21,410 nucleotides of DNA from Spirogloea muscicola (lineage: Eukaryota; Streptophyta; Zygnematophyceae; Spirogloeales; Spirogloeaceae), in the NCBI GenBank assembly GCA_009602725.1, contig WELB01000046.1, positions 160,952 through 182,361 on the forward strand. Direction: 5' to 3'. Position 1 is the stretch's first letter, and every line of letters begins with the position of its first letter. This document shows positions 3,256-21,410 of this stretch, piece after piece. The position numbers and the translations under genes are program-made. The notes under the pieces are model-generated. The model did no database searches, had not been told where the DNA came from, and was given only the letters and a program-made list of their open reading frames with translations.

Positions 3256-4237
3256 AGGACCAGCTTCTCCAAATTATGGCAATGGCTGTGAGAGGCCAGT
3301 CCAATGGACTGTACAAGGAAGGAAGGAATGTACGAGGCCTTGGAATGGAGTGTGTGTTGAGTGATGGAGGGCCTGAGTGGCCAAGTACAGAGGCAAGCAA
3401 GGCCTGGGATGATCACAGCACCGAGCTACAGGCTACGACTCGAGCTGGTGAGGCAGGCGGCAGCGAGCTTCTGTATGGGCGGCAGCAAGTGTGTGCCTGC
3501 GCCGCACTCCTCAAACGCGCATGGCAGCCACTGGCAGCTCTGCTGACAGCTAAGCGGCCAAAGCTTTTCAAGCTCTCTAAGTAGCACTGAACGTTTGCCT
3601 CTGAGCGAGTGCCCGCGAGCTACACAATTGTCCTTCGTCACCAAAGTCCCTTCTCTCAGTCAGCAGTTGCACAGGAGATCCTGCAGAATATACAGTTACC
3701 CTTGCCAGCGACTCCAAGACCGCGACGTGCATTGAGGAGATGGAGGTTGAGGGTGAGCACCCAACAAGAAGCACTGCCAGATTGAACTCCACCAAAAAGG
3801 GCAGTGGCTGTAAAAGGCCTAGCCCAAAAGGAAAACGATGGACAGGGTCCAGAGTGGCCCAAATCACGCAGCTAACCAAGTGGCTACTACACATGGCTAC
3901 TATGTAAAGGAAATTGATGGCTTGGAGAGGCCAGCCCAAATAGGATGGAAGAGGTCTGCAGGGAAACCCAACCCGACAACGCACATAACTTGGCAATGAC
4001 AAGTAGCTACTACGAGCCAACCAGTAATCCCAGAAGAGCACTTACTGGGTAGCTGCTACGCTTGACGTTGTAAACGACCTGGCTTTATTCACTCAATGAC
4101 CCAATTATGCTACACATTGCCTCACAGGGCTTGCCCAAGCAGAGAACCTAAGATGAAGTTGTAACTTTCTTAAGAGAATTGCCCATACTGTACCGCAAGA
4201 GTGTCTTGAATGATGGACTCTTCAAATTGCTATAGGC
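3256..4237. repeat. Repeat-filled intergenic region with degenerate stem-loop copies
   Basis: There is no supportable gene. Degenerate minus-oriented copies of the stem-loop repeat occur near 3280-3310 (GGCTGTGAGAGGCCAGTCC), 3795-3830 (GGCTGTAAAAGGCCTAGCCC) and 3915-3945 (GGCTTGGAGAGGCCAGCCC). The block GAGTGGCCAAGTACAGAGGC at 3373-3392 matches a block near 12680-12700, also repeat DNA. The part next to 4238 should include the IF-2 3' untranslated region. Confidence 0.6.
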
Positions 4238-7200
4238 TCACATCTCTATGCGCATGCTCCCGTTCTGCGACGAAATGAGCCGGGGGGGCACGACAACATC
4301 TTCAAGGCACTGCACGACGTCACCAACCTGGAAGCCTGCCCAGTTCTGCAGCGTCATGCCGCACTCGGAGCCCTTGCCGGCAACCTCGTCGACCTCGGCC
4401 TTCTCCCGCTTGAGGGTCTGGCACGAGCCTTCAAACACCGTCTCCCCACTCCGCAGCACTTTGACCTTGGAGGATCTCTGTAGCTTGCCCTCGGCCAGGC
4501 GGAGGCCAGCAATCATGGTCGCACCAATTTGCTCACGGCCACGTCCCTTGACCTCAAAGACCTGAGAAAAATACGATGACACAAGAAGCAGTGCTGGGGC
4601 TCAATAAGGTCCACACAAAGCGGAATTGTGCAAACAGGCCGTGTCCAAATGGGATGACAATTACACTGCTGTCCCAGTGCCCTAGCCAACCCTGAACCTT
4701 GCCCAGTGCATTGGATACCGCATGACTTGGCTACTGCCATGTATACCTGAAGGACCTCTGCCTGTCCGGCAACCCTGGATTCTTTAACGCCTGGAGCTCG
4801 CGCGACCAGGATTCCCCCAACTTCCTCAAGGAGGTGGTATATCACCTTGTGAGATAGGATCTGCATCACATCAATGAGCCGCAAGTGGGCCTGTCAGCAA
4901 GGAGAGTCCTGTAGCCAGCTCCTGTAGCCAGTAGCCTGTAGCCTGTAGCCAGATGTGGAGAATCCACCGTGAATGCCATCTACTGCTAAACTCCAATATT
5001 ACAGAAGTCATCTTTCACCCAGTACAGCAATTTGAAAGCTTTGCACCGCATCATTTACACAATCTGGAGAACCTCACAACCTCCATCGACCTGATATTAA
5101 GCAAGAACAAAGATAACCAGTGGAAGGGGCGGGGGCCTGTGGGGACCCAGTTTCAAGCAAAGAGCACGCAAGCTGTGGCTTACATCTACTCCTGCTCTTC
5201 GTGCCGCAGCATCAACTGTGGACTTGACGTTGAAGGCAACAATCACGGCACCGCAAGCTTCGGCTAAGTCCACGTCCGACTGAGAGATGGCACCCACACC
5301 CTCGTGCACTATGAAGACGTCCACCTAAGCATGAGCAGCCCATGTCAGCATCAAGTTGGTCAGCTCATGGACCTTACAGTGTCTGCAAGTCTTGCATGAC
5401 GAGCATGACACTCTTTGTGTCATTTTTGTGCTGGAATCATCCGCAATGATAGGTGGAACTAGACAAGGTTGCTGCAAGAGAACCCCTAAAATCATTTTGC
5501 AACTACTGCAATACAGGGCCGCCCATTTACATACTTTGAGATGTCAAGTTCAGCCTTGACAAAGTCAACGTGACTATGCACTACAAGCTCTCGAAGCTTA
5601 CAATCAGCAATTGCTTTTGCAGATTCGCGCAGCCACCCTCGTGCAACCTTTTCTGCAAAGAATCTATGTTCGTTGCTCACCTGAGGGCTGCTAAGGCACT
5701 CAATGGCAGCACTCACGGCCTGCGCTGTTCCCTTCACATCGGCTTTCACTATCACCGGCATCTGGACAGCAGACTGGCTACTATGTCCTGCATCCTTCTC
5801 CAGCATACTCGTGCTACGTAGCTCCTCATCCCCAGCCAATCCTGACCTTCTCTTTGCGCCTTTCCTTGCAGCCGGCATGGCACCCTCCTCCTCATTGCCC
5901 TGCCCTCTGCTCACAATCTTCTGGTTGAGCTTGTGTATCCTGGCCTCTTCGGCCCGCCTCTGCCGGCCAGCACTCAGGCGCCGCGCCCTTCCCTCGTCGG
6001 CTACAACCAGGACCTCGTCGCCAGCTTCCGGGAGGCCCCGCAGGCCGTCAACTTCGGCTGGCATTGAGGGTCCTATACATCACAAAAGTATATCAGTCAG
6101 TAGGAGATTGTTTCGCTTGCTTGTTATACTCCTCCTTGAACAGCCTCTACATGGTAACCTTCCTCTGAGGCATCTGAATAGCAACCCTCAGAGCACCACC
6201 TTGGTATGCCTTAACAGCACACTACGGGCTCCACTGGCAGCTTCTGCGCTACTTACTCAGCGCACATATGTCTTGCAGATTATAACCACACAAGCCACTA
6301 GGAAGGCAGAAACAACGAATGATGGCGTGAAAATGGAGTGAAGTCCAATGTACTTCGAGCAGTATTGCAAGTCAAGAGATTGGATGAGCAGTCCCACAGG
6401 GGCCAGAATGCGGAGCACACCTGCGGCGTCAATGGGGCGCCCAGCCTCGTCGCGGAGGGCGCGGACCCGTCCCCACTGAGCGCCGGCCACAATGAAGGTG
6501 CCCTTCCGCAGCAAGCCATTGTGCACAATGATCGTCGCAAGAGGGCCCTGGCCGCGGTCGACGCGGGCCTCCACCACGACGCCCTCGGCGTCGCCAGCGT
6601 CCCGGCCCCGCAGGTCCAGGAGCTCCGCCTGCAGGAGCAGCGCCTCCTCGAGCTCCACCAAGCCCGCTCCGGTCGCTGCTGAAATTTCGACCACCTGGAC
6701 ATCGCCGCCTGTGTCCTCGAGGGCGAGGCCCAGCTCGCCGAGCTGCCGCCGGACCCTAGCGGGGTCCGCTTGCGGCAGGTCGCACTTGGAGACTGCGACG
6801 ACGATGGGCACGCCGGCCGCCTCGGCCAGGCGCGCCGCCTCCACCGTCTGGGGCATGACGCCATCCTCGGCAGCGACCACGAGGACCACGATGTCGGTCA
6901 AGGCAGCTCCCCGCGCTCGCATTGCACTGCACGACAAGGGGCAGAAGCACTAAGTCAGAGTCCTCCACCCTCAATGACAGAATTGGCTGCAAAACAAGAG
7001 GCCAGCACAGCAGGATGGGCGATCACAAAATCTATTGAGACGGCATAAATATTCGGGATGAAACAACTATGGCTAGCATATCAAGACAACAAATTTTACT
7101 TATTTGTCGCAGAAAAAGGGGTTAATCGACTTCTGCTTTTGGTAACTCTAATCACATTAGATGTAGGAGATGGTGCTTGAGTAGCACACACTACCAAGAG

Positions 7201-8818
7201 CTCTAGAGCACGACTCAAGGTGTGAGAGGGTTGAATCTGAACTGAACCTGAATGCGGCGTGTCCAGGGGTATCGAGGAATGTCAGCTCGGCCCCGGAGCG
7301 CAGGCTCACCCGAAACGCTCCAATGTGCTGCGTGATGCCGCCAGCCTCTCTGATGACTCAACAGCGGCAGCATTTGCAGCGAATCAGTGAACTGACTTGG
7401 AGCACTTGCTACGTAATACTTGCAGCCAGCAAAACTGTGCCGATGCCAGAAGAAGCTGGCAAATCTGGGAGCTCTCATAGCTCCTGAAGAATTTGATATG
7501 ATGCATAGGACCCGTGCCACGAGTACGACAGCCGCCACAGTTTTATTCAGTCTGCCTCACATGTTACTGTGTTGTCTAATGCCGTTGGTTTGGCAAAATG
7601 AGGCTCTCAGCTCATTATACTACTGCACCCCTGCTTTGAAGCCTAGATCCTGAACTGCTACACTAATCTTAAACAGTAGCATGGCAGTCGAGCCTTGTCC
7701 TTCAGCTCACAGCTCCTGTACTGCTGCCTAGCAGTCCTGCCAGAAGCTGAATGCCGAGCGACTAGCAGAGCTGCCTTGTCGAGCACCTGACAGCAACCGA
7801 GGTCGAGCGTAGGGCGTCCAGGAGGGTGGTCTTGCCGTGGTCGACATGGCCCATGACCGTGACAACCGCCGACCTCACAGGCCAGCTGCTCCGCTCCTCC
7901 TCAGAGGCCCTCACAGCGGAGCCTCTGTCGTAGCTCTTGTTCCGAACGAAGCGGACGGACCTGCCAAACTCCTGCTTGCCCGAGGTTAAGAAAACCCACG
8001 AGCTAAGTGATTGATTCTTAAAGTGCACACAGTCATGGCTAACCTGTGCCAGCATCACAACACAGCTGTGCGGAGCAAAGCCCCAGGCGGCTGCAGAGGT
8101 AGCGCGCCGAGGCTGCTACCAGTGCGACGAGCTCGGCGGCGTCCGGGCTCAGAACCGCGTCCAGGGACGTGCCCAGCTCGCCGAGGGACGCCAGCGCGGC
8201 CTCCACGGCGTCGGCCTTCTCGCCCAGCAGCCGCGCCAGCTGCCGCACCGTCACCCGCTCCGGGACTTGCAGGTCCTGCACCACGCCAGCGAGTCCATCA
8301 AGGGGGTCAATTGAGCAGCTCTGATCAGCTGGAGCTGAATCAGCAGAGAAATATCGTATTCAAATACAAGACCCCAATTTCTTCTGTTTTCTGCAGTCTC
8401 GCCCGAACTCATACATCCGTTTGATGACCAGTACACATGTACTGCCTTACACGCAAAAGCCAAATGAGTAGTCAGTTCTAAATAAATACCATTAGCTCAT
8501 ATTTCTGGTACCCTTCTGCTTATGTGTTATTGCGTCGTACCATTAGGTGTAAGCTCAAAGGGTTTAGAGCAGTCAAGCATATAGTAGAGCGGGCGAGACC
8601 TTGAGGGGGCGCGCCGCGGCGGCGGCCTCGACGGCGGGCACGTATGGCGCGTCGGCGGGCGCGGCTTTGGGGCTTCCTGACGGCGGCCGCCGCTTGCGCA
8701 CCACCTGCTGCCCGCTCGGCCCGATCTTGGGCCTGCCGGCGGCGTAGTGCCGCCGGCCGGCAATGGCGGCGGCGGTCCCAGCGGCCTCGCGGCCGAGGCG
8801 TCCAGNGAGAAGTCGCAC
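4238..8818 (-). CDS. MTIF2: Mitochondrial translation initiation factor IF-2
   Basis: Nine coding exons: complement of 4238-4561, 4747-4860, 5184-5324, 5681-6072, 6421-6926, 7248-7349, 7787-7971, 8120-8275 and 8600-about 8818. Phases fit at every junction, giving about 640 residues plus about 70 in exon 1. This GTPase places initiator tRNA on the organelle small ribosomal subunit. Order: a presequence ending R-R-H-Y-A (R-3 cleavage type), the IF2-N fold ([11 protein letters not shown]), then the G domain with [16 protein letters not shown] and DTPGH, then domains II, III and IV, where [13 protein letters not shown] and [11 protein letters not shown] stand out. Junction sequences and the C-terminus ([12 protein letters not shown]) resemble plant mitochondrial rather than chloroplast IF-2. 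Oddities: the fourth GTPase motif is S-K-C-D instead of N-K-x-D, and no in-frame ATG is visible in exon 1, which touches the ambiguous base n8806. Confidence 0.94.
4909..4951. repeat. Short tandem repeat CTGTAGCC(AG) inside an IF-2 intron
   Basis: About five imperfect units built on CTGTAGCCAG lie in the intron between the IF-2 exons at 4747-4860 and 5184-5324. The units vary in length, and two are shortened to CTGTAGC. The repeat does not touch the splice sites and looks like simple slippage. Confidence 0.8.
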
Positions 8819-9345: not shown

Positions 9346-9625
9346 GGAGGGCGAGCGTCGGGGCGAGCGCTGGCCGGCTCTGGAAGGGGAAGGGGTCGCG
9401 CGGTACGCATTGACATGAGAAGGCGGCCTGGCCGAGCCAATATTATGTCACTCGGGCGAAGCCAATCCAAGCCAAAAGCGCCGTCTCAGATGTGGGGTAA
9501 TGAACCACTCAATAAGCACGAGAGCATTGGGAGAGCTGTTCCTTCTTCTTCACCTGCGACGGCGTCTGGCGGGTCAACGGCTTTTCTTTCCTTTTTCCTC
9601 CGACTCGCAGGCGCAGGCGCGATAC
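9346..9625. other. Intergenic stretch between the F-box ORF and a retroelement fragment
   Basis: The part next to 9345 should hold the F-box 5' region. An open frame runs in from 9500 into the downstream retroelement ORF, but its first 42 residues are not recognisable and the ATG at 9626 is a more natural start. I see no promoter motif. Confidence 0.4.
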
Positions 9626-10216
9626 ATGGCTGCTGTGGACAAAGCGGCGTTCACGGACACGCTGCAGCTCCTCCCCGCAGGCGACGTGCGCGGCCGTGCT
9701 CGGCTGCTGTCGGCCGCCTCCCCCGGCGCGGCAGCCTGGCTCTCTGCGCTCCCACTGTATGATGCGCTCAGGCTGCCGGACGAGCTGTTCCGCACGGCCA
9801 CGCATCGCCTGCTGGGCCTCCCCCCGCCCTGCCTGCTGGGCGTGCTGCAGTGCGAATGTGGGGAGCGGTCGACGGACCCGGCGGAGCTGGCGGCGCATCT
9901 CCTCCGCTGCGCCACTGGAGGCGAACGAACAGCTGCGCACGACCTCTTGCGTGATGCTATGTTCGGGATCTTTCAGGAGGCGGGCTACACGGTGGCGATG
10001 TCCCGCAGACGCGGCGAGCCAGCCGACTTCAACGCCGCGGGCTCGTGGGCTCAGGTATATCGGATGCGCCTCTCTGTATCCCTGCAGCGGTCCATGGCCC
10101 ACGCTCTGCATCTGCGAGCTGGCCGTGCCCTCGCTGCGGGCTCTGGCTTTCGTCAGGGTGATAGCTTCCCGGCCGCTAGTCTGTCGGATCTGAGGCTCCT
10201 CACTCGTACTTATTGA
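9626..10216 (+). mobile_element. Non-LTR retroelement reverse-transcriptase C-terminal fragment
   Basis: The frame is open from 9500, with an internal ATG at 9626, and ends at TGA 10214-10216. It resembles the region after the polymerase domain in LINE-type ORFs. P-G-A-A-A-W-L-S-A-L-P comes first, then a cysteine-histidine knuckle (C-E-C-G, about a dozen residues, H-L-L-R-C), then H-D-L-L-R-D-A. The catalytic F/Y-x-D-D core is absent, so this piece cannot be autonomous. The tail (Y-R-M-R-L-S-V-S-L-Q-R-S-M to S-D-L-R-L-L-T-R-T-Y-stop) recurs in broken form at 11185-11300, 13645-13836 and 14973-15130. A stem-loop of the dispersed family follows 97 nt after the stop. Family assignment rests on motif order only. 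Confidence 0.7.
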
Positions 10217-10313
10217 GTGATCCATCCTCCCCCTATTTTACCATTGCATCCTCAGGCCCCTTTGTAGCTGCTCACCGCTCTTAGGCCCCTCTGAAGCTTT
10301 GTGAATTCTTTTT

Positions 10314-10333
10314 GGGCTGGCTTTTCGCAGCCC
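10314..10333 (+). repeat. Stem-loop repeat (GGGCTGGC type) behind the RT fragment
   Basis: GGGCTGGCTTTTCGCAGCCC forms an imperfect stem with a short loop. It lies 97 nt downstream of the stop codon at 10216, after a stretch ending in a T run, and probably belongs to the 3' untranslated region of the retroelement copy. Confidence 0.75.
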
Positions 10334-10362
10334 TTGCCCCCATTGGGAGTGCCACTCCTTTC

Positions 10363-10545
10363 TTGAAACATGCCAGGGCGTCATCCCGGGCCTGGGCCTC
10401 GCCGTTATCGTTTGATGAGCCACCCCCTGGCCCCGCGTGAACACCCGCCGGCGAACGCGACAACATCGCGGCCAAGGGGTGGCTCATCCAACGCTACGGC
10501 CAGGCCCGGGCCCGGGAGGACGCCTACGCCCTGGTATGGTTCAAG
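10363..10545. repeat. Inverted (fold-back) repeat, degenerate copy
   Basis: The left arm starts near 10363 (TTGAAACATGCCAGGGCGT) and pairs with the right arm ending near 10545 (CCCTGGTATGGTTCAAG). Inner blocks GATGAGCCACCCC and GGGGTGGCTCATC also pair. The two sides carry mismatches and small indels. It is a partial relative of the longer and better-paired fold-back at 11626-11924. Confidence 0.75.
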
Positions 10546-10560
10546 GGGACGGGACACTAA

Positions 10561-10707
10561 AACGGCGACAAGTGGGGGCTGGAGCTGGAGGAGCCAAAGC
10601 AGCACCGCGAGCTCGCCGAGGCCTGGACGCCCGAGGGGCAAAGGCGGCCCCAGCATTTGGCGGACGCGGCCAAGACGACCCGGGTGGGGCTCGGCCGGGC
10701 GAGCGGC
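10561..10707. repeat. 147-bp direct repeat, copy A
   Basis: By eye this differs from 11870-12016 at only two positions: A versus T in GAGCCAAAGC, and G versus C in CTCGGCC. One frame reads as natural protein (G-D-K-W-G-L-E-L-E-E, then H-R-E-L-A-E-A-W-T-P). In this copy a TAA lies just upstream in that frame, so it is not an intact gene. The function of the encoded peptide is not recognised. Confidence 0.9.
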
Positions 10708-10765
10708 TCCGAGAGCTGGGGCCCGAGGAAGCTCCTCATATGTTGCAAGGAGCTGAGACTCCTGA

Positions 10766-10900
10766 GGGGTGATGACCCGTGGTCCGAGTGGCGATGACCC
10801 CTGGTCCGAGGGGCGTGGACCCTTGGCGGCGGCCGTACGCGACGAACGAGGGGCGATGACCCCTGAGGGCGAGAGCGGCCCCGAGGAGCTGGGGCTCCTG
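10766..10900. repeat. GC-rich short repeat array (GGGGCGATGACCCCTGG unit)
   Basis: Imperfect copies of a GATGACCC(C/G)(T/G)GG unit recur, joined by GTCCGAG. A GGCGGCGGCCGT segment and a CGAGAGCGGCCCCGAGGAG segment are interspersed. The same succession is found at 12379-12500, so the block has been duplicated. The unit is partly self-complementary (GGGGCGATGACCCC). No open frame of interest crosses it. Confidence 0.8.
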
Positions 10901-10966
10901 AGCTAAGCTGAGCTGAGCTGGGGCTCTAGCTCTGGCCAGGGGACCCACTTCCAGGAGCCTAGCATC

Positions 10967-11108
10967 TCTGATCTGCGGCTGCTTAGCAGAGGTTACTGAG
11001 TGATTCGTAGCTGCTTAGTTTCTTTTTGTGCTTGTCTTTCTTCGTGCTTCGCCTGCCCCCCTTCTTGTACTCTGCTCATTCTTTTTTTTGGGCTGGCTGT
11101 TCCAGCCC
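10967..11108 (+). repeat. Retroelement 3'-end module: coding end plus stem-loop
   Basis: Positions 10967-10999 read S-D-L-R-L-L-S-R-G-Y-stop. After a pyrimidine-rich spacer with an eight-T run, the stem-loop GGGCTGGCTGTTCCAGCCC occupies 11090-11108. AATGGGCGAGCC follows at about 11117-11128. The spacer, stem-loop and following motif recur at about 12304-12369. The upstream coding part of this copy is missing, so it is a fragment. Confidence 0.75.
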
Positions 11109-11184
11109 ATATCCTCAATGGGCGAGCCCTTTCTTCTGAGGCGGCTGCCAGAGCACGTCCTGCTCGCGTGTGGACGGCGTGGGC

Positions 11185-11300
11185 AAGGGATCGTTGAAAC
11201 GATACCGCCAGGCGCATGCGGAAGACCTGGGCTAACGAACCGGCGGCGTTTGAAGCCGGGCAGCGCCCCTGGCAGACCCGGCCGCCGGTCAATGGCCTGA
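11185..11300 (-). pseudogene. Inverted fragment of the retroelement C-terminal coding region
   Basis: On the minus strand this encodes A-Q-V-F-R-M-R-L-A-V-S-F-Q-R-S-L-A-H and then R-A-G-R-A-L-A-A-A-S. This is clearly related to the tail of the plus-strand fragment ending at 10216. It lacks the zinc-knuckle region and the final S-D-L-R-L-L module. Together with the plus-strand module ending at 11108 it makes a head-to-head join of two partial copies. Confidence 0.65.
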
Positions 11301-11471
11301 CGGGCAAGCCGCTGGAGGAGATCCAGCCAGCAGCTGCCGAAAGCCCCGTGAACGTCGATCGCCAGGGCCGCGAATTCGTCACCAACCGGGTGGTAGGAAT
11401 ATTTTCGCTCTTTACCCCGGGCTGCCTCTTTACCCTGTTCGTCTTGGCCCGTTACGTTGTGGAGTTTATTA

Positions 11472-11570
11472 TGTAGCCTTGTTTACTTTGCACTCGACTC
11501 TGCCTGAACAATGTATTGGCTTGAATTGACCTCTCTTCCATTTCATGCGCCCCGCGCGCCTTCTCTCTGT
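11472..11570 (-). repeat. Dispersed repeat, copy 2 (A-R-G-A-H-E-M type)
   Basis: Matches 478-575 along its length, including the core TTTCATGCGCCCCGCGCGCC at about 11540-11560. On the minus strand it reads A-R-G-A-H-E-M-E-E-R-S-I-Q-A-N-T-L-F. It lies just upstream of the large fold-back element. Confidence 0.65.
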
Positions 11571-11625
11571 GGAGAAGACTTGGGGTAAGACCTGGAGGTA
11601 CGGGTCGCGGGCTCGATTCCCCGGC

Positions 11626-11924
11626 CGAGCTCGCGGTGCTGCTTCTCCATCTCCTCCAGCTCTCGCGCCCACTTGTCGCCGTTATAGTGGCACGGCCTCC
11701 CTGTTGAACCATGCCAGGGCGTCCTCGCGGGCCCGGTTCTTGCCGTAGCGACCCCTTGGCCGCGGCGACAGCGGCCAAGGGGCCAAGGGGTGGCTCATCG
11801 ACCGCTACGGCAAGGCCCGGGCCCGCGAGGACGCCCTGGTATGGTTCAAGAGGGAGGACGTGCCACTATAACGGCGACAAGTGGGGGCTGGAGCTGGAGG
11901 AGCCATAGCAGCACCGCGAGCTCG
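11626..11924. repeat. Large fold-back inverted repeat
   Basis: The left arm (about 11626-11750) is close to the reverse complement of the right arm (about 11803-11924). Blocks that pair include CGAGCTCGCGGTGCTGC with its complement at 11908-11924, CACTTGTCGCCGTTATAGTG near 11670-11690 with 11865-11885, and CCAGGGCGTCCTCGCGGGCC near 11713-11735 with 11818-11840. The inner part pairs again (CCCCTTGGCCGC with GCGGCCAAGGGG), leaving a tiny loop. A transcript would form a hairpin of roughly 120-130 bp. The right arm runs into the second copy of the 147-bp direct repeat. Confidence 0.88.
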
Positions 11925-12016
11925 CCGAGGCCTGGACGCCCGAGGGGCAAAGGCGGCCCCAGCATTTGGCGGACGCGGCCAAGACGACCCGGGTGGGGCT
12001 CGCCCGGGCGAGCGGC
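11870..12016. repeat. 147-bp direct repeat, copy B
   Basis: Nearly identical to 10561-10707. Here the frame upstream is open (H-Y-N-G-D-K-W) where copy A has a stop, but a TAG interrupts at G-A-G-C-C-A-T-A-G where copy A has AAG. Each copy therefore carries a different break. Confidence 0.9.
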
Positions 12017-12069
12017 CCCGAGGAGCTGGGGCCGAAGGGCCTCCTCCCATGCTTCGAAGAGCTGAGGCT

Positions 12070-12241
12070 TCTGAAGAAGGCTCGCCCATAAAGAAAGAGG
12101 GGCTGGCAAAGCCAGCCCAAAAAGAACGGACAATGTCCAAAGCCGAAGAATGAGAAGCCGAGGAAGGACTCCTCTACTCTACCAATCACGACAACATACT
12201 AGGGAAGCTCAGTACCCGCGAGTGAGCAACATCAGGTCCGA
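12070..12241 (-). repeat. Retroelement 3'-end module, minus orientation
   Basis: On the minus strand 12241-12209 reads S-D-L-M-L-L-T-R-G-Y-stop. Ninety nucleotides further on is a perfect stem-loop, GGGCTGGCTTTGCCAGCCC (12118-12100). It is preceded by the small palindrome GGACATTGTCC and followed by ATGGGCGAGCC. The same arrangement occurs at 21182-21363, and its stem-loop part recurs at 15338-15420. Confidence 0.8.
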
Positions 12242-12303
12242 GTAGCTCGAGGCAGGGAAGGAGGCACTCCGCCTCTGAAGGGCGATGGCCCCCTTCTTCT
12301 TGG

Positions 12304-12369
12304 GCTTCTTGTACTCTGCTCATTCTTTTTTGGGCTGGCTGTTCCAGCCCCTATCCTCAATGGGCGAGC
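12304..12369 (+). repeat. Stem-loop with flanking 3'-end sequence
   Basis: This is a direct repeat of about 11061-11125. It carries TGTACTCTGCTCATTC, a T run, GGGCTGGCTGTTCCAGCCC at 12332-12350, then CTATCCTCAATGGGCGAGC. No coding end of the S-D-L-R-L-L type lies in front of it, so it is a 5'-truncated copy. Confidence 0.8.
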
Positions 12370-12378
12370 TCTTCCTCG

Positions 12379-12500
12379 ATGACCCGTGGTCTGAGTGGTG
12401 ATGACCCCTGGCGGCGGCCGTTTGCGGTGAACGAGGGGCGATGACCCCAGGGGCGAGAGCGGCCCCGAGGAGCTGGGGCTCCTGAGGGGCGACAACCCCT
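12379..12500. repeat. GC-rich short repeat array, second copy
   Basis: Parallel to 10766-10900, with GATGACCCGTGGTCTGAGTGG, GATGACCCCTGGCGGCGGCCG, CGAGGGGCGATGACCCCAGG and GCGAGAGCGGCCCCGAGGAG in the same order. The block appears to have been copied together with the stem-loop just upstream. Confidence 0.8.
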
Positions 12501-12552
12501 GGCGACGTGGAGGCCGGAGACGCGAAAAAGAAGGGCTCGCCCACTGAGGATA

Positions 12553-12781
12553 GGGGCTGCTTTGCCAGCCCCTCTTCTCTATGGGCGAGCCCTTTCTTCT
12601 TTAAAAAAGCCCTTGTTCAAGTTTTTGAACAGAAGACGAGAAGGAGAAGGAATGCGTGTATATTAAGAGATGGGGAGGCCATGTGTGGCCAAGTACGAAG
12701 GCAAGCACATTGGACAAATGTACGTCACCTGCTGCTAAGCTGACCCGCTCAGTAACCACGAGTCAGCACATAGACGTCGCT
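12553..12781 (-). repeat. Retroelement 3'-end module, minus orientation, with widened spacing
   Basis: On the minus strand 12781-12749 reads S-D-V-Y-V-L-T-R-G-Y-stop. A stem-loop, GGGGCTGGCAAAGCAGCCCC (12572-12553), follows after 176 nt, about double the usual spacing. The extra length holds a GTGGCCAAGTACGAAGGC block that also occurs near 3375-3392, so an insertion in the spacer is likely. Confidence 0.6.
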
Positions 12782-12829
12782 AGCTGACGCTCGAATACCG
12801 GACGGCAATTGAAGGAGAAGGGGCCAGGG

Positions 12830-13030
12830 AAAGAAGGACGACACGACGGAGGCCGGAGACGCGGCGGAGGCCGGAGACGGGGAGAGACGCGACGGAGGCC
12901 AGAGATGCGACAGAGAAAGCGCGCCAGTTGAGGATAGGGGCTGGAAAAGCCAGCCCATAAAAGGCAACAAAGTACGAGAAGGGGGCCAGGGGAAGCGCGA
13001 CAGAGGCCGGAGACGCGGAGGCCACAGACT
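12830..13030. repeat. Short tandem repeat GAGGCCGGAGACGCG with embedded stem-loop
   Basis: Several imperfect units of GACGGAGGCCGGAGACGCG run from about 12838 to 12900 and again from 13000 to 13025. Between them, at 12938-12956, lies the stem-loop GGGCTGGAAAAGCCAGCCC. The minus-strand frame across this block (12749-13075) is low-complexity repeat translation ending in the S-D-V-Y-V-L-T-R-G-Y module. Confidence 0.75.
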
Positions 13031-13186
13031 CCCGGCGAAAGGGGAAGTGGTGTAACGGGGAGGGCTAACCGACAATCAGTAGATAGCGGTTAGCGGATGA
13101 TGTAATAGTGGATTGACCATAAATGCCGGGAACCCTGCGGGTGGTATCCTGTCCTAGACCTCTTGCCCGTTACAGTACATTCCTTA

Positions 13187-14620
13187 GGGCTGGCCTATCA
13201 CAGCCATTGCCGTGAATTGGAAGAGCTATTCTCTTGCTCTTCAAGGCAACGGCTTTAGCGCTTTTCTGGCCCCTTCGACACATTGTTCATTTTGGGCTGG
13301 CCTCTCACAGCCATTGCGTTACCTTGAAAGCGCTCTTCCGGTCATCCGCATCACCCCCTGCCGGCGGGTGTGAAAGTCAAGGTAGCTCTCCCGATGGGAG
13401 CAAGGGCTGTGAAACCGGTGGATGTGAGGGCTGCCTTTCCCTTGCAGCTGCTTACCAGGGGTTACCAAGTGACTATCCTTCGTGGTACATACTCACATAT
13501 TTCAGCCATTCCTAATCTTGTACATTCCTTGGGGCTAGGAAAGGCCAGCCCAAAAAGAATGAACAAAGTTCGAAGGGTCCAGGAGAAGAGCTAAAACTAG
13601 CACATATGGAACCAAGCAGCTACGAAACACTCAGTAACCCCTGCCTATTGGCCTTCGATTGTTTCAAAGTACACGATATCCTTCCTGTTAAGCAGCCACA
13701 GGTCAGAGAAACTGGGCTCCTGGTATCGAGTCCCCTGGCCTGGGCCAGAGGCAGCAGTTAAGGCACGACCGGCACGCAGATGCAACGCTCGAGCCATAGA
13801 CCTCTGCAGCGAGACGGACAGGCGCATGCGGTACACCTGCGTGAGCGCAGGTGGGCTGGCCTCTCACAGCGATTGATTGCCTTACATTGGAATAGCCGCT
13901 TCTTCTTCTCCAGCACTTCCCGGCCCTTTCGACTGCTGCCTCCGTAGTCTGCCTGAGCGACGCTTTTCCGCCCTCTAGATTTCCCATCTGCATTTGCTCT
14001 ATAGAGGTGATTTAGAGCGTCCACTCGCAGAAGTCACAGGTAGTAGTAGTTCGTGCTTTTGCACCTTCCGGCCTTTCAGACCTTCTGCATTCCTTTGGGC
14101 TGACCTTACACAGCCTTTGTCTTACATTGGACGAGCTATTTCTTCGTCAGACCTTGTCCATCTCATTCTGGCTGGCTTTTCACAGCCCTGGCCCTTTTTA
14201 GAAGAGCCACTTGTCCTTTTTCATTTGCTTTGGGGCTTTCATTCCCTTCGCATTCCGAAGAATGGTGTGGCATCTTGCATGGACTACAGGTGCTCAACGG
14301 ATAGAAACAGCTCCTCCAAAGACTGTGATGGCTGTGAGAGGCGAGCCTAAAAGAAATGAATAAGGTCTAAAAGGGCCGGAAGGCGCAAAAGATGCGAAAG
14401 TACTCTCCTGAGGTCTTCGAATGGAAATTCATTTTGGCGCTTTCCGACCTTGTCCATTCTATTCGAACTGGCGTCTGACAGCCCTCGCCTATATGAAAGA
14501 GCTGCATCTCTCGGAACATTATTCTTTTGGGCGGCTTTCACAGCCGGCCCTTTCGGACCTTGTTCCTTTGGGCTGGCCTTCCACAGGCATCGCCCTACTT
14601 TGAAAGAGCTGTTCTTTCAC
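13187..14620. repeat. Cluster of degenerate stem-loop repeats
   Basis: At least nine copies of a GGGCTGGCC-(5-7 nt)-CAGCC(C) stem-loop lie at about 13187, 13294, 13531 (minus), 13853, 14097, 14170, 14328 (minus), 14466 and 14570. Many are embedded in a longer unit. T-T-C-C-G-G-C-C-C-T-T-T and ACCTTGTTCATTC precede the stem-loop, and CATTGCCTTACATTGGAAGAGCT or a variant follows it. Spacing is irregular (40-320 bp), so this is a cluster and not a strict tandem array. No gene is visible here apart from the small coding fragment at 13645-13836. Confidence 0.8.
13645..13836 (-). pseudogene. Fragment of the retroelement C-terminal coding region
   Basis: The minus strand reads Y-R-M-R-L-S-V-S-L-Q-R-S-M-A-R-A-L-H-L-R-A-G-R, very close to the tail of the fragment ending at 10216. 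It ends with a degraded S-F-S-D-L-W-L-L-N-R and runs past the usual stop into extra residues. In element orientation a degenerate stem-loop (13853-13871) lies directly upstream of it. It is too short to encode anything active. Confidence 0.75.
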
Positions 14621-14799
14621 AATGCTCGCCTCTTGGTCAATGAGCTGATAGACTGATCGGCAAGGCAGGACTGCCCCTTCACTTCTGCAAGTTGTTTTTC
14701 TACATTGTTCTTCTACATTTCTTCTTTCTTACCCTACAGTCTGCCAGCTAGGCTTGGCCTCCCTTTGATTGTATGTGCACTGCATTCTCCACAACACCG

Positions 14800-15130
14800 C
14801 ATTGGCTGTGAGTGGCCAGCCCAAACGGAATGAACAAGTACACCAGAGAAGAGTGAGCTCTTCCAAAGGGGGCAGGGGCTGTGAAAAGCCAGCCCAGAAA
14901 GAATGAACAATGTTTGAAGGGCCGAAAGGCGCCAAAAGCACAGCTATGCAAGAGACTACAGCGAATGGGAGCTTAGTAACCCCGAGTCAGCAGCCGCAAG
15001 TTGGAGTAAGGTGCAGCTAGGGAAGAGGCATCCCGACGAGACCCAGAAGTAGCGGCCTTGCCTGCAAGTGCACTGCGTGATCCTGGATCATTGGAAGGAG
15101 ATGGATAGTCGGATACGGAAGACCTGGGCA
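14800..15130 (-). repeat. Retroelement 3'-end module with broken coding end, minus orientation
   Basis: On the minus strand Q-V-F-R-I-R-L-S-I-S-F-Q begins near 15130. After a frameshift the sequence continues to S-N-L-R-L-L-T-R-G-Y-stop (15005-14973). A stem-loop follows after 77 nt (14895-14875, GGGCTGGCTTTTCACAGCCCC), and a second degenerate one sits near 14825-14805. Each junction matches the layout of the other modules. Confidence 0.7.
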
Positions 15131-15159
15131 AGCAAGCCGAAAGAGAGTCGCTCTCTCGA

Positions 15160-15440
15160 AGGGGGCGAGGGCTGTGAATAGCCAGCCCGAAAGCTTTTGA
15201 CAAGGTCCAAAGAGGAAAGGGGCCGGAAGGGCCAGAAGGTGCAAGTTCCACGAGTTTCTAACCTCCATGACTCCTGCGAATAGACAAGCAATAACCTCTA
15301 TTCAGCAAGCGCAGATCAAATTACTGATGGGCGTGTAAAAGAAAGTGCTCGCCCATACAGAAGAGGGGCTGGCAAAGCCAGCCCAAAAAAAATGGACAAT
15401 GTCCAAAGCCAAAGAGCGAGGGCACGGACAGATTCCTTGA
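15160..15440 (-). repeat. Two further stem-loops flanking a degenerate coding end
   Basis: A perfect stem-loop (GGGCTGGCAAAGCCAGCCC on the plus strand, 15366-15384) sits with GGACAATGTCC and GCTCGCCCAT flanks. On the minus strand a degraded D-L-R-L-L-N-R-G-Y lies at 15321-15292, and a second stem-loop follows 103 nt later at 15188-15169. This is the last repeat before the CesA gene. Confidence 0.7.
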
Positions 15441-15656: not shown

Positions 15657-18600
15657 ATGGACTGGGTCGGGCCCGAGGCCAACGGCGCCGAGGCGGATGC
15701 AGCGGCCGCCTCCAGCATGCAGCTGGTGCCTGCTAGTGGTGGCAGCCTGCAGTCAGCGTCTGCTCGTAGCCGACAGCGCTCCCGCTGCAGCAGCCCCCTA
15801 TTTGGCACCATGGCTCACGGTGGCAGCCAGCTCAGATCAGTCAACGGCCACAATCGAGCATCTTTGGTTAGTGCAACGTGCAGAGCATCACTATCTACTC
15901 TATGCAAGAGTCTGGCATCATCGAAGGCTGCATGCCGCTTGTGCAAGACTGCGACGTCCCCACGCGATGCGATTCCTGCTGATAATCAATTGACTGACTC
16001 AGAATAGTCTGCAATGTAACATCAATGCCACACCGTTGACAGTAATCTGCAACAATATCGGTATGTCCAATTTCTGCGGTGCAGGGCACCTTCACCCTCA
16101 AGCAGAGTGCAGTCTGCCGTATGTGTGGAGACGAACTCGCCGCAGAGGATGACCAGGACGACTTTTCGCCATGCGACTGTACATTTCAGATGTGCACGGT
16201 CTGCTTGGAGCACGTGAGATCCTATGAGAAGAATCGCTGCCCTGGCTGTAACAGTGATTTGCGCACCAAAGAGCAATGTGAGTGCCGCAAGTCTTCCTCT
16301 CTTGGAAGCACCTACAGCTTGTCCAGTTACAGAGTCTGCACGAAATGCCGGCTGTGTTCTTCGAGAGCCACATGCAATTGACAATCTTCGATGCCCCCTA
16401 CAATGACTGCTCAGGGAGAGCCATGAAGTCCTTCCTCTGCACCGAGGACACACCAACAGCTGTTCCAAATGGGATTGGTATTGCTCCAAGTTTTCCAGAC
16501 ATTGGAGCGAAGGACCAAGACTTACAGCTTGTAAAAGGATCACAAGATCCTGCAGGCGTAGAGGTGCTCAGCTGCTAGCTACTTATGTCTGTCGTGCATT
16601 GTCATAGCTCTGTGCCCATCCTGTGACGCCTTCCACATGATAGACTCGCTCGCTAAGCATATTGCAGGTGATAGCATGCGAGAATAGCTCAAAGCTGCCT
16701 GTAGCAAGCACAGCACACTATGGATTTGGTAGTATAGCATGGCATCATCCGCCATGTAAAGCGAATGCACGGGGCAATCCCAGGTGCCCTACTTTCTCGA
16801 GCATGACAGGCTTCTCATCCACATGCGGCATCTCATTGTAGTGGACGATCATAAGCAAGCCAAGTCTCAGAACGATCTTTGATGGACCATTGAGGAAGTC
16901 CGGTGGTCTGACCACGGCCCTGGTGTGTGGTACTCGCGTCCTTTTTCAGTGCGGATATCAAGCTGAGGGGCCTTTTTCGCAAGAGCTCATATCCAGCAAG
17001 TAAGATTGGGCCCTACAGGTAAGACTTACCAAAATGCCTCATCTTTGTGAGTAAGATCAGCATCTAGAAGTTTGCGCAAAGTCTATAGATATGCTTCTGG
17101 CTCTAAGGAGGACAACAGTTTTATTCTGCTGCAATCATGATGACTTACATCAATCTAGACCAAAGTCACAACAGATTCTCATGGGAAGATGCTTGTCTGA
17201 ATCGTCACCAACGTTTGCAGGATCTTTGTCTTTCTTAGGTTCTGTGCAACTGTAGGCTTCATACAGTATAGAGTGACCCATCCCACATCATCAGGATACT
17301 GGCTCTGGTTTCTATCTGTGACGTGCGAGATATGGTAGCTTTTTCAAACTCTCTTCATGTGATCATGGCAGTTAAAGGATCGACAAAACTTGCACAAAAG
17401 ACATAAGATGAGGGGTCCTAGAGCAGTGCTGCTTGCGATGTTCTTACGGTGGCCTTTATTACATCTTGATCTTTGACTCGGACGCCTGTTGACACATCTG
17501 CATTGTCCTGCTCAATGAGGACGGATCACACGCAGGTTTTTCATCTCTTGGCTTTTGGACACATTCTCCAAGTTGACTCCTGTGTACAGAGAGACTTACA
17601 AGGACCGGCTTTTTGCCATGTATGTACACCAATGTGTACTATTGACTGCGAGGCTTTTTAAGAGTTAAGGTCGTTTAGGATGCATGTATTTTGTGACCGT
17701 TATGCCGAAGTGTAGCAACACTTACATGAGAAGGATATACTAAGGATGTAGAGAAGTCACCTCACAAAATCTCAATGTTACGATCTGACATGACTAACGC
17801 GTAGTAGGCTTGCTCATGACTGTCTGGAGGCAAGATATGACAACGGCCAAAAGGACCTGCCAAAAGTTGATGTCTTTGTCACCACAGCTGATGCTCAGAA
17901 GGAGTCACCATTTGTTACTGCTTGCACAGTCCTTTCTGTCATGTCGGCTGATTATCCGGCAAACAAGTGAGTACCTTTTCTCATTGTTACTCTGCATATC
18001 ACATACCTTTAATGTGTGGCCTCCCCCAGGTCAAACAGTCAGCACAGAGCTTGACATGTGTACTGCATCACCTTGTTGGATGGTCAACTTGCCCGAACCT
18101 TGTCCTGCAGCATCCCCATTCAATTTCATGCGCACCGCGCGCGTTCTCTCTGTCCTGCAGCATTTACGATCTTTGCGGCCATAATTTCTCCATGCCACGT
18201 TGTTGCAGGCTTGCCTGTTACCTTTCAGACGATGGGTCCTCCATGCTCACATTCAATGTCATGGCTGAGGTTGCTGGATTTGCTCGTTTATGGGTACCAT
18301 TTTGCAAAAGCTTTGACATTGAGCCGAGAAACCCCGAAGCATATTTTGCGCACAAGTTCGACTTTCTGAAAGATAAGATACAGTCGGATTTCGTAAGGAG
18401 CCGCCGGAAGGTCAAGGTATGTCTGGCAGACCCCTCCATCCCATGTTAGCAACTTCTTTCCGACAAGCGGTTGCTGTCTGATCCATGAGAAACCCATGGC
18501 TCATTTGTGATGGTAAGCAAAGGTAAATGGCCATTGTGAAGTGCATGTTGTGCAGAAGGAATTTGAGGAATTTAAAGTTCGAGTCAACAGGCTCGTGGCT

Positions 18601-21127
18601 GACAGCTGTCATCCTCCAGCTGAAGGATGGCAAATGAAGGATGGCAGCCCATGGCCTGGAAATAACTATCTGAACCACGATGGCATCATCCAGGTACTCA
18701 TGCTCATCAGAAGATATAGCACGAAGAGTGACACGGGTTTTAACAATTGTTTCAAGGCCTCCATGCATCACCACCAGATACGAAATGTACTTCACTTCAC
18801 AATAAGGATACACAAACACCGACACTCGCTATACGTTCAGCATCGCCTTGCTAATATGACATCCTCGCTTAAGCTGCCTTGTAAGTCTTCGCTTGTTTCT
18901 GTTAAGATCGACTGTGTAAATACTTGTGACAGGTCTTCCTCCACCCTGATGGCGATGTTATGGACGTGGAGGGTCAGCACCTTCCCCCCCTTATCTACGT
19001 GTCAAGAGAAAAGAGGCCGGGGCATGACCACAATAAGAAGGCTGGCGCTATCAACGCTCTTATCCGAGCAAGTGGTCTAATAACGAACGGGCCCTATCTC
19101 ATCAATCTGGACTGTGACCACTACATCAATAACTCTCAAGCAATCCGGGAGGTACGTGCCTTATTGATGCCTCATAGTGCCTCAATGTATGAGAGCCTGT
19201 CTTCATCCGTGCAGCAGCATTTTGGCTGCTGGCTTGAATCTGGTGGGCTCCTGCAAGTGATAAGGACCAAAACTACCACAATTGCATGTTCAGATCAAAC
19301 AAAGGTGACTAACAGCAGGCTTCTTTTGCGTTTATAGATTGACCAGATTGTGTCTGGTGTATTGCTTAACAAGAGCGTAAGATGCAGTGCAGGCTCTATG
19401 CTTTTTCTTGGATCCTATAAAGGGTCGCAATATAGGCTTTGTTCAGTTCCCCCAGCGATTTGACGGTGTTGACCAGAACGACAGATATGCAAACCACAAC
19501 ACAGTCTTTTTCGACATCAACATGAAGGGACTTGATGGATTGCAGGGGCCTGTCTATGTTGGTACTGGCTGTATGTTTCGCCGAAGGGTATGCTCTTCTT
19601 AGAGGTCCTTAATTGACTTCCTCAGCAGTCTCTTGCATCTCAAGGTTATGTGCATGGCTGACCTATGCCAAGAGAAATGCAGGTATACCAAATGCATGGC
19701 GGGCCAGTGATGTGTACTTCTTACGCCCCGTAACTGCCATTCTTGTTATTTTGGTGCATGATATGAAAGATCCAAGATTGTCATAGTGACAGGGTGCTGA
19801 CAGCAGGCTTCTTTCAGCACAGGCCCTCTATGGATACCGCCCACCGAAATACTCGCTAAACAGGGTCGACAAGACACAGCAAGGATGGAGACTTGATTCG
19901 CCTGCCTTCTGCTGCCTACTGAGGAGGTTCAAGAAGAAAAGGGTATCAGATAGCATGGTTAATGATCATGCAGGCCAAGGTGGGATACTGGTCATGGCAT
20001 GTGAAATGGAACATAGTTTACTGCTGGCCATATTGAGCATGTCCAAGCCTCCTTTGCAGCTCCTTTGTCCAGCACAAAGACCACGAGTAAGTCCAAAGCA
20101 GGTCCAGGTCCTTTGTCATATCATCAACTCTCGCAACGTCTCCGTCTTAAGATGCAGGTTTGCTGCAGAAGGAGCTTCCACCTGCGAAATTGGGAATGTG
20201 CAGCAACTTCATAGAGAGTGCAATGAGGGAGGAAAACGGGCAAAAGAGTCCCTTCGGCATTCTGAGGTTGGCGCACCTGCTAACAGCAGTGCTTAGGAAA
20301 TTCTATCGATAGATATCATCAAGTCAAGAATTTGCAAGTGTTTGCAGCTGGAGCAAGCTGTGGCTCACATTGCATCGAAGCTAATATTGACCGTCGTGCA
20401 TTTGCATGGCAGTCCTCACTCAATGTTGAGTGACGTGGTGCTGAGCATCAGTTGCGACTACGAGGACAAGACAGATTGGGGAACGGAGGTTGGCTGGATA
20501 TACGGATCTCTGACTGAAGATATTGTGACAGGCTTGAGGATACACAGCTGTGGTTGGAGATCAGCTTACTGCGATCCATCTCTTGCAGCATTCAAGGCAT
20601 GTGGTCAATCGCTGTACCTCAGTGGCTGCATCGTGCCGGGCAAAGAGTGTTCACAAGTCCTGCAAGCCTCGCTTAAAGGATACCTTGAGCCAAGAAAGTC
20701 GATCATTGTTCATTGATAGCCCTGCAGCTGCAGAAGACCATTGGAGGCATCTGCTTGACTGACAGGGCTCAGACTGCAGGGATCAGCTCCTTTGAACATG
20801 GCTGACAGATTACACCAAGTCGAGAGGTGGGCTACTGGAGCTGTTGAGATCTTCTTTAGCGGCAGGAATCCCCTAATATATGACTGGCATGGCCACCTCA
20901 GCTTCTGCCAGCGTCTTGCGTGAGTATCTCAAGGGCCTTCAAGAACCAACAAATAACAGTTCATGCTCAATCACGGGCTATGCTTAAATCATGTACCTTA
21001 AGGTGATTGGGTCGTGTCGTGCAGGTATTTCAATAATGCCTTCTACCCGTTCACCAGTCTTGCGATTGTGGTCTACTGCCTCCTACCACCACTTGCCCTC
21101 CTCACCGATTTATTCTTTATTCCAGTG
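15657..21127 (+). CDS. CESA: Cellulose synthase catalytic subunit, 3' end outside the window
   Basis: Resolved exons: 15657-15866, 16085-16277, 17239-17334, 17536-17619, 17808-17966, 18209-18416, 18556-18693, 18933-19151, 19393-19587, 19823-19942, 20169-20266, 20413-20596, 20780-20919 and 21025-21127. Phases match from 17239 onward. The enzyme polymerises UDP-glucose into beta-1,4-glucan at the plasma membrane. Seen in order: an N-terminus with V-N-G-H-N-R-A-S-L (CesA usually has S-H-N-R-N-E-L), a RING finger, TM1-TM2 ([33 protein letters not shown]), [15 protein letters not shown], catalytic DDG, the P-CR ([15 protein letters not shown]), [17 protein letters not shown], a short class-specific region, LTED, QVERW and TM3. 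Oddities: the second RING cysteine pair is C-x-C, QxxRW carries a glutamate, one intron is GC-AG, and exons between 16278 and 17238 are unresolved. The gene runs off the window. Confidence 0.95.
16278..17238 (+). other. Unresolved part of the CesA gene (variable region and start of TM1)
   Basis: CesA proteins need a variable linker and the first half of TM1 between the RING and Q-Y-R-V-T-H-P, so one or more exons must lie here. The RING exon ends in phase 1 (CAAT then GTGAGT) and the next sure exon begins with one completing base. Candidates are an open frame at about 16282-16575 (ending V-E-V-L-S-C) and a piece ending at 17005 (CAGCAA then GTAAGA), but neither can be fixed by homology from here. 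The stretch has no obvious stem-loop repeats. Confidence 0.5.
18101..18163. repeat. Short insertion with 13-bp flanking direct repeats in a CesA intron
   Basis: TGTCCTGCAGCAT occurs at 18101-18113 and again at 18151-18163. The 37 bp between contain the core TTTCATGCGCACCGCG found at 543-560 and, with one change, near 11541-11556. The layout looks like a target-site duplication around a fragment of the dispersed repeat. It lies between the exons ending at 17966 and starting at 18209 and should be spliced out. Confidence 0.7.
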
Positions 21128-21181
21128 GTGAGCAGCGTCTGCTGGCCGACTTTGCCTTGAGCATTGGCTTGCCCAGGCATA

Positions 21182-21410
21182 CGAGCAAGAAGGTGCTCGC
21201 CCATTGAGAAAAGGGGCTGGCAAAGCCAACCCAAAAAGAATGGACAATGTTCAAAGCCAAAGAAAGAGGTGCTGAAAAAGGACTACACTACAAAGTGCAA
21301 GATGGTGCAGAGGGAGATGCAGATGGCTGCTCAGTATCCACGTGTGAGCAACAGCAGATCAGAGTAACTCGGAGCAGGAGAAGCGGCACTTTGCCGAGAC
21401 CCGGAAGCAG
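21182..21410 (-). repeat. Retroelement 3'-end module in the last visible CesA intron
   Basis: On the minus strand 21363-21331 reads S-D-L-L-L-L-T-R-G-Y-stop. The stem-loop GGGTTGGCTTTGCCAGCCCC lies 98 nt further on (21232-21213), then CTCAATGGGCGAGC. It matches 12070-12241 closely. The sequence on its 5' side runs to the window edge, so the copy may be longer. It is antisense to CesA and follows the splice donor at 21128. Confidence 0.8.

Follow-up and report, generated by a model that had tools for sequence, protein, structure and literature searches.

ZfL2 and UnaL2 are long interspersed nuclear elements (LINEs) of the L2 clade that carry an apurinic-type endonuclease. In such LINEs of the stringent type, the element's protein binds a stem-loop at the 3′ end, which is followed by a short repetitive tail (PMC4176376, PMC3747384), and plant LINEs with 3′ stem-loop ends of this kind also exist (PMC3747384). 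In the Zepp LINEs of Chlorella and Coccomyxa, and in L1-1_CR of Chlamydomonas, new copies insert into existing ones (PMC8226300, PMC3446292), and Zepp clusters consist mostly of 5′-truncated 3′ ends (PMC8226300, citing earlier work; PMC3446292). Here we describe a family of short stem-loop repeats in a 21,410-nucleotide (nt) stretch of the genome of the streptophyte alga Spirogloea muscicola (assembly GCA_009602725.1, contig WELB01000046.1, positions 160,952 to 182,361 of the forward strand), the whole of which is referred to below as the window. The repeats are the 3′ ends of a LINE, a known kind of structure with a self-targeting habit, and not a new RNA family. As the best explanation overall, we consider it very likely that each stem-loop is the end of a LINE's 3′ untranslated region (UTR), and that these ends have been piled up by self-landing.

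Zepp is placed among the L1 elements and ends in poly(A) (PMC8226300, PMC3747384), and in Coccomyxa it forms one cluster per chromosome (PMC3446292). LINEs with a restriction-like endonuclease (R2, R4/Dong, NeSL, HERO, Utopia, and CRE) are described as having one frame, with N-terminal zinc-finger-like motifs, a central reverse transcriptase (RT), and a C-terminal Cys/His motif and endonuclease (PMC4640811, PMC5678591); the spacing given for the CCHC knuckle is CX2-3CX7-8HX4C (PMC5678591), and the targets are mostly ribosomal DNA, small nuclear RNA genes, transfer RNA (tRNA) genes, and microsatellites (PMC4640811). The green-algal Dualen/RandI LINEs have short-repeat 3′ tails, and SINEX-2_CR, which has a RandI tail, ends in (CTTT)n (PMC3747384).

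Stem-loop repeats and their parent LINE

An earlier note on this DNA had proposed a large, dispersed family of short stem-loops that keep the stem while the loop differs. The family itself is borne out by both searches of the window. A stem pattern with at most three mismatches gave 8 matches against 0.31 expected, a number reached in 0 of 100 shuffles, and a profile built from the final ~75 nt, refined in repeated rounds with the window and with loci fetched from the genome, gave 27 matches at E ≤ 0.01 between positions 581 and 21256; run against the window reversed, or against 20 dinucleotide-shuffled versions of it, this profile matched nothing. Three of the 27 are weak members with E above 1e-4, and the matches represent 26 tail places because a near-palindrome at 12527-12598 scores on both strands. 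Exact copies are present at 12100-12118 and 15366-15384, where perfect stem-loops had been reported, and the copy that the note placed in a CesA intron (21213-21232) has a one-mismatch stem at 21214-21232. The occurrence in both orientations and the conserved flanks named in the note were likewise confirmed in the window copies. The span 10314-15384 proved to be the densest part of the cluster but not all of it; the stem is kept, as proposed, but the unit is the terminal ~75 nt of a LINE and not a stem-loop standing by itself. Members that had been taken for degenerate belong to other subfamilies and are mostly more diverged.

The copies are not confined to this locus: across the 471 contigs of the 153-Mb genome, GGGCTGGCNNNGCCAGCCC occurs exactly at 1,979 places, and the same pattern read backwards at none. 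In an arbitrary sample of ten 5-kb stretches, two of them wholly N, the profile gave 27 matches in 34.4 kb of readable sequence, and five of the eight readable stretches were positive. If this density is naively extrapolated, the genome would hold between some tens of thousands and roughly a hundred thousand tails, a figure with a broad margin of error. Clustering of 210 copies produced ten groups of at least three members with different loops, which together take in 139 of the copies; the 5′ arm GGGCTGGC is kept in all ten of these subfamily groups and the 3′ arm CAGCC in nine, and the stem arms are among the best-conserved columns across subfamilies. Copies L001-L034, which were fetched by similarity, do not sample the family at random; L005, L006, L012, L019, and L033 were omitted as overlaps or identical copies, as was L037 from the count of neighbour strands given below.

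Aligned copies share a sharp boundary on the GGGCGAGC side but none on the other. In the sense orientation, with the sharp edge as the 3′ end, the tail reads ...TTGGACATTGTCCATTCTTTTTGGGCTGGC-loop-GCCAGCCC...ATGGGCGAGC-CTTTCTT, and long copies traced upstream run into fragments of a reading frame. Over about 4.3 kb, the three copies L049, L050, and L051 show 98.5-99.9% identity to one another, with a single block in each pairwise alignment. Each has a single long frame of 1,410-1,433 codons (1,358 from the likely ATG in L049), and the order at the 3′ end in all three is TGA, 90 nt, hairpin. This length of about 4.3 kb is probably complete, because L050 and L051 start with the same bases.

A Pfam domain scan, run on the 1,410-codon frame of L049 as the one representative of the three, identified a reverse transcriptase (RVT_1, E 2.5e-13) and nothing besides; for an apurinic-type endonuclease there was no Pfam match in this frame at E ≤ 1. 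The frame also contains two Cys/His motifs in its N-terminal part, YADD within the RT, and, near the C-terminus, a Cys/His motif C-X-C-X12-H-X3-C (amino acids 1180-1199) together with RRADLVAI...RIITD. The latter was read by eye as R-A-D-X14-D, against a restriction-like endonuclease consensus, and on this reading the LINE endonuclease may be of the restriction-like kind. A first look at the genome with a 150-amino acid C-terminal piece of the frame gave 5,468 candidate places, and 150 of these were scored. For clade placement, phmmer and hmmsearch against PDB gave nothing, or a group II intron RT at E 1.3, the hmmsearch profile covering mainly the C-terminal half of the frame. No relatives outside the genome were returned by a protein scan and one exact pattern in viral contigs, and none in prokaryote genomes by one exact pattern, as expected for a eukaryotic element.

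Insertion of copies and alternative explanations

The manner in which copies arise was assessed from a young L051-type set, for which 39 copies were fetched of 40 scored places (the other being L051 itself); L074, with 90.5% identity over about 300 nt, was dropped, leaving 38. A fully readable 5′ junction is present in 20 of these, which measure 142-541 nt and have 18 different starts and a common 3′ end; of the remaining 18, 14 stop at N (three at a single N) and four at the edge of the stretch. Pairs of s1-type copies, compared from their 3′ ends, lose similarity at many different points, between 83 and over 1,000 nt. Fifty matches on one s1-type reference, with ends at 58 to 979 nt, were not used as a truncation map because the ends at 58-66 are largely TGTTC-loop copies and those at 84-88 reflect an indel, points at which similarity to this reference ceases; the 19 matches reaching at least 149 nt have ends that are spread. 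A fixed 3′ end with scattered 5′ starts is what target-primed reverse transcription leaves when it often stops early. Among the 23 young copies whose 5′ flank allowed comparison, three of which carry an N at the junction, 7 are flanked by target duplications of 5 nt or more, against 3% with mispaired flanks. At 36 genomic places, including L051, the terminal 138 bases are identical, and the family has therefore been recently active.

Several young copies (among L062-L100) start within 6 nt of one another, at positions 4093-4098 of the L051 reference; seven stop at N, and four have readable flanks (L067, L076, L080, and L088), two with 6-nt target duplications. This cluster of starts possibly marks a stop site for reverse transcription or a small derived element.

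Tails lying within 60 nt of each other at the fetched loci comprise 55 same-strand, 12 convergent (tail-to-tail), and 3 divergent (head-to-head) pairs; in the unbiased stretches together with the window there are 12, 1, and 2, respectively. Some young copies interrupt an older tail, parts of which lie on either side of them; the break is in the loop (L009 and L079), directly past the stem (L068, L070, and L097), or further 3′ (L081 and L086), and in other cases the older tail lies on the 3′ side only, for example past the T run (L027 and L072). Under one rule, a tail match within 12 nt, the 3′ flank begins inside a tail in 23 of 80 copies (29%). Own-tail landing accounts for 13 of the 38 L051-type copies, compared with 1,419 of 13,241 neighbourhood windows (10.7%; p about 1e-4), and for 10 of 42 s1-type copies (intact 3′ end, at least 88% identity, N-free downstream flank; 11 of 42 under a looser 14-nt rule), compared with 277 of 4,000 neighbourhood windows (6.9%; p about 5e-4); among random positions, 71 of 2,000 (3.6%) are inside tails. 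The enrichment in the L051 set is about three-fold with its own neighbourhood control and about five-fold with the control from s1 loci. These p-values are rough, because the control windows overlap and are not independent, and the nearby controls are strict, because they count clusters that targeting itself would build. The figures exclude L065, L079, and L097, which look nested by eye but scored under the cut-off. Of the 13 landings in the L051 set, 12 have the same sense as the older tail. New copies prefer to land in or next to older tails, and clusters such as that in the window therefore build up.

In the mechanism that we propose, the LINE protein would bind its own tail (the hairpin and the conserved upstream block) and start target-primed reverse transcription, which would usually stop early and leave 5′-truncated stubs. 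The nick would be made in pyrimidine-rich stretches beside the stem, in the loop, or in the CTTTCTT tail, and because such nick sites lie in its own tail the element would keep striking itself; a nick preference for these tail-borne stretches would be the likeliest cause of the piling. A preference for an extruded DNA hairpin as the landing site is possible, as a matter of speculation. Dead copies would then decay into the members that look degenerate. More tentatively, and with our confidence somewhat short of even, we suggest that the LINE endonuclease has a preference for the 3′ hairpin region of the element's own DNA (the loop and the pyrimidine stretch after the stem), such that the tail would be at once the ticket for reverse transcription and the next landing site, and self-seeding with very early stops would have filled a compact green-lineage genome with ~10^4.5 to 10^5 stubs in dispersed head-to-tail piles. 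If this is true and the endonuclease is restriction-like, it would represent a new target specificity for that class.

Whether the stem is maintained as a structure was addressed by folding and by covariation. Compared with shuffles, L051 (z -3.84), an s1 copy from the window (z -4.17), a TGTTC-loop copy (z -3.97), and L042 (z -2.16) fold well, and three older-subfamily copies have z values of -1.91, -0.19, and 0.04. The longer closing stem in single folds pairs different upstream sequences in different copies. In an alignment of 38 chosen copies (19 of the 27 window matches, 17 of the 27 matches from the ten stretches, and 2 references), pairing is kept in 90.6% of cells over the seven pairs of the stem.

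A number of these results weigh against our explanation of the family. The excess of compensatory stem changes by which the earlier note had proposed to judge the structure did not appear: there were no double-sided changes in 265 cells of the 38-copy alignment (shuffle mean 0.4), and a small upstream hairpin (GGAC-NTT-GTCC) had 4 double-change cells against 3.7 in shuffles. Two of the three older copies (z -0.19 and 0.04) fold no better than shuffles. The L049 stem is imperfect, with one mismatch, and in L050 the final ~20 nt, including ATGGGCGAGC, are missing. The restriction-like endonuclease is a motif reading, and RRADLVAI...RIITD has no Pfam, NCBIfam, or PDB match. As to insertion, 16 of the 23 young copies have no target duplication of at least 5 nt, 57 of the 80 copies landed outside any recognisable tail, the nested s1 landings are mixed in sense (six the same, four opposite, or five with the looser rule), and the unbiased neighbour pairs are few, with divergent pairs no rarer than convergent ones. 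Because there are no double-sided stem changes, the conservation of the stem cannot be assigned to base pairing over sequence, and, with arms that hardly vary, covariation is unable to argue for pairing; a constraint by pairing is only partly supported. With no covariation in the main stem and none above controls in the upstream hairpin, recognition of a folded RNA rests on analogy with the stringent-type LINEs and with plant LINEs whose 3′ ends are of this kind, and by that analogy recognition of the tail by the element's own protein would be the likeliest reason for its conservation.

The scattered starts bear directly on whether the stubs could be short interspersed nuclear elements (SINEs), that is, a non-autonomous element distinct from the LINE, in which a 5′ head of its own would be joined to the LINE's tail. 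The shortness of most examined copies, and the start within 4093-4098 shared by four of the 20 readable young copies, would fit such an element, which would also be expected to have a common 5′ head; none was met among the 18 starts of those 20 copies, although RNA polymerase III promoter boxes were not searched for. The many end points of s1-type similarity, the LINE 3′ UTR and open reading frame (ORF) upstream in longer copies, and the lack of a tRNA gene in the window by tRNA scan further speak against SINEs, which we regard as unlikely. An RNA gene or tRNA-derived SINE was rejected, there being no Rfam match at the gathering threshold and no tRNA by scan. Slightly less probable again is the origin of the clusters by tandem duplication or unequal crossing-over after insertion in place of targeted insertion. 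This would account for the predominance of same-strand neighbours (55 of 70 pairs within 60 nt), but by eye the neighbours are mostly of different subfamilies and truncation points, convergent pairs exist, and seven young copies (L009, L068, L070, L079, L081, L086, and L097) are inside older tails that continue on both sides, with a target duplication of 7 nt at L070 and one of 5 nt at L081.

If the stem-loop were an independently selected host RNA or DNA element, such as a terminator, small-RNA precursor, or cruciform, the conservation of its arms across subfamilies and the folding of young copies well below shuffles would be explained. Descent from active source elements explains the conservation, old copies decay, compensatory changes are absent, and there is no Rfam match at the gathering threshold; we therefore consider a host element very improbable. 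The palindromic stem close to a fixed end also recalls DNA elements, namely the 3′ hairpin of a Helitron, a miniature inverted-repeat transposable element, or a fold-back element. Helitrons end in CTRR, and the tail here is the pyrimidine-rich CTTTCTT; the reverse transcriptase in a 4.3-kb copy and the 5′ truncation leave this origin with scarcely any credibility.

With the stem-loops read as LINE 3′ ends, the family becomes a readable record of insertion, in which tails date and orient retrotransposition events, and the tails account for the richness of the non-coding DNA of this genome in short palindromes. It also cautions against annotating hairpins of this kind as small RNAs or terminators. 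If the self-targeting is true, the dozens of near-identical recent copies would provide a natural system for the choice of landing sites by LINEs.

Tails and neighbouring features in the window

Five window tails have LINE ORF pieces upstream (those at 10288, 12073, 13531, 14850, and 21187). The first belongs to a C-terminal frame fragment at 9596-10213 (plus strand), which covers amino acids 1095-1229 and 1335-1410 of the L049 frame with the middle missing (tblastn 70% and 66% identity, E 6.5e-46 and 9.2e-21) and ends TATTGA; the 3′ UTR tail of this copy is at 10288-10360 (plus strand; profile E 1e-14), about 100 nt past the stop, with its hairpin at 10314. A TGTTC-loop tail at 11066-11135 (plus strand; profile match) is abutted on the opposite strand by an ORF fragment of amino acids 1292-1390 at 11128-11426 (minus strand; blastn 88.6% to L051, tblastn 86-87%). 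The element at 12073-12273 (minus strand) is a young 5′-truncated LINE that comprises about 60 nt of ORF end, the 3′ UTR, and the perfect hairpin at 12100-12118, and is 99.0% identical to the L051 end over 201 nt.

Profile matches continue downstream with another TGTTC-loop tail at 12297-12376 (plus strand), the near-palindromic tail at 12527-12598, which has GGGCTCGCCCA to the left and TGGGCGAGCCC to the right of the stem, and a tail at 12913-12976 (minus strand). The near-palindrome spans about 70 nt, with GGGCGAGC flanking the stem left and right, and could represent inversion or recombination of opposed tails. Two head-to-tail tails of the CTATCA/CTCTCA-loop subfamily (13175-13231 and 13271-13339) make up the profile-matched segment 13175-13339 (plus strand), after which there is a weak partial tail at 13382-13414 (minus strand; E 4e-4). 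An older LINE at 13531-13848 (minus strand), recognised by the profile and by ORF similarity, retains the ORF end (amino acids 1354-1407, at 13848-13687) and the tail (13577-13531). Also matched by the profile are a partial tail at 13852-13904 (plus strand), two head-to-tail tails with 2 nt between them at 14072-14212 (plus strand), a tail at 14303-14374 (minus strand), and two further head-to-tail pairs, at 14441-14616 (plus strand; 14441-14509 and 14549-14616) and at 14799-14921 (minus strand; 14838-14799 and 14921-14850). Just upstream of the tail 14921-14850 is a LINE ORF end at 14967-15144 (minus strand; tblastn E 5e-8), in which amino acids 1351-1388 and 1384-1410 are in different frames, and a further tail at 15146-15214 (minus strand) was matched by the profile.

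The stub at 15339-15421 (minus strand), with the perfect hairpin at 15366-15384, is a 5′-truncated LINE that is 94% identical over 84 nt to an s1-type copy in L036. Within or beside the CesA-like gene, another 5′-truncated LINE at 21187-21408 (minus strand; 78% over 222 nt, profile E 2e-16) consists of an ORF end (amino acids 1386-1410), the 3′ UTR, and the hairpin. Towards the start of the window, the profile matched three diverged tails within 3256-3963 (minus strand; 3325-3256, 3856-3784, and 3963-3911), and two weak partial tails occur within 581-675 (617-581, minus strand, E 0.0043; 637-675, plus strand, E 0.0014).

Other repeats are also present. An inverted repeat with 111-nt arms (11640-11750 and 11803-11913), 88% complementary and 52 nt apart, is possibly another mobile element; the 58 nt at 10547-10604 also show 79% complementarity to one of the arms. 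A block ATTTCATGCGCNCCGCG followed by C/T-rich sequence recurs at 511-572, 11507-11568, and about 18105-18150 (the third by eye), and looks like another family with a conserved end. The window opens with a long poly-T run and then a (CT)n run (1-216). The CesA-like gene (16082-21410) has a RING-type zinc-finger exon, identified by eye, and a 75-amino acid exon whose best PDB match is a plant cellulose synthase (E 1.2e-29), which points to a host of the green lineage; the minus strand at about 4260-8800 seems, by eye, to code for an IF-2-like translation factor.

Comparison with known LINEs

As in ZfL2 and UnaL2, a stem-loop lies close to the 3′ end of the Spirogloea LINE and is followed by a short tail, although the binding of protein to RNA has been measured in those elements and would here be assumed by analogy. 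The N-terminal zinc-finger-like motifs, central RT, C-terminal Cys/His motif, and possible endonuclease motif of the single frame recall R2, R4/Dong, NeSL, HERO, Utopia, and CRE. The element differs from these in that its C-X-C-X12-H-X3-C departs from the CX2-3CX7-8HX4C spacing, and in that its preferred target is its own tail; in the openly licensed literature, as far as its texts could be consulted, we found no description of a LINE of the restriction-like class that targets its own tail. Dualen carries both types of endonuclease. The pyrimidine 3′ tail of the Spirogloea element is of the short-repeat type, as in Dualen/RandI, whereas the Pfam scan of L049, unlike what would be expected of Dualen, found the RT only.

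The likeness to Zepp lies in nested insertion into the element's own copies, which yields arrays of 3′ ends. Unlike Zepp, the clusters in this genome are dispersed, the tail is CTTTCTT, and the landing sites are in the hairpin region of the tail; the Pfam scan of L049 gave no apurinic-type endonuclease, which further sets the element apart from the L1/Zepp type. What is new is that copies of this LINE land in earlier tails, in a manner similar to what Zepp LINEs do.

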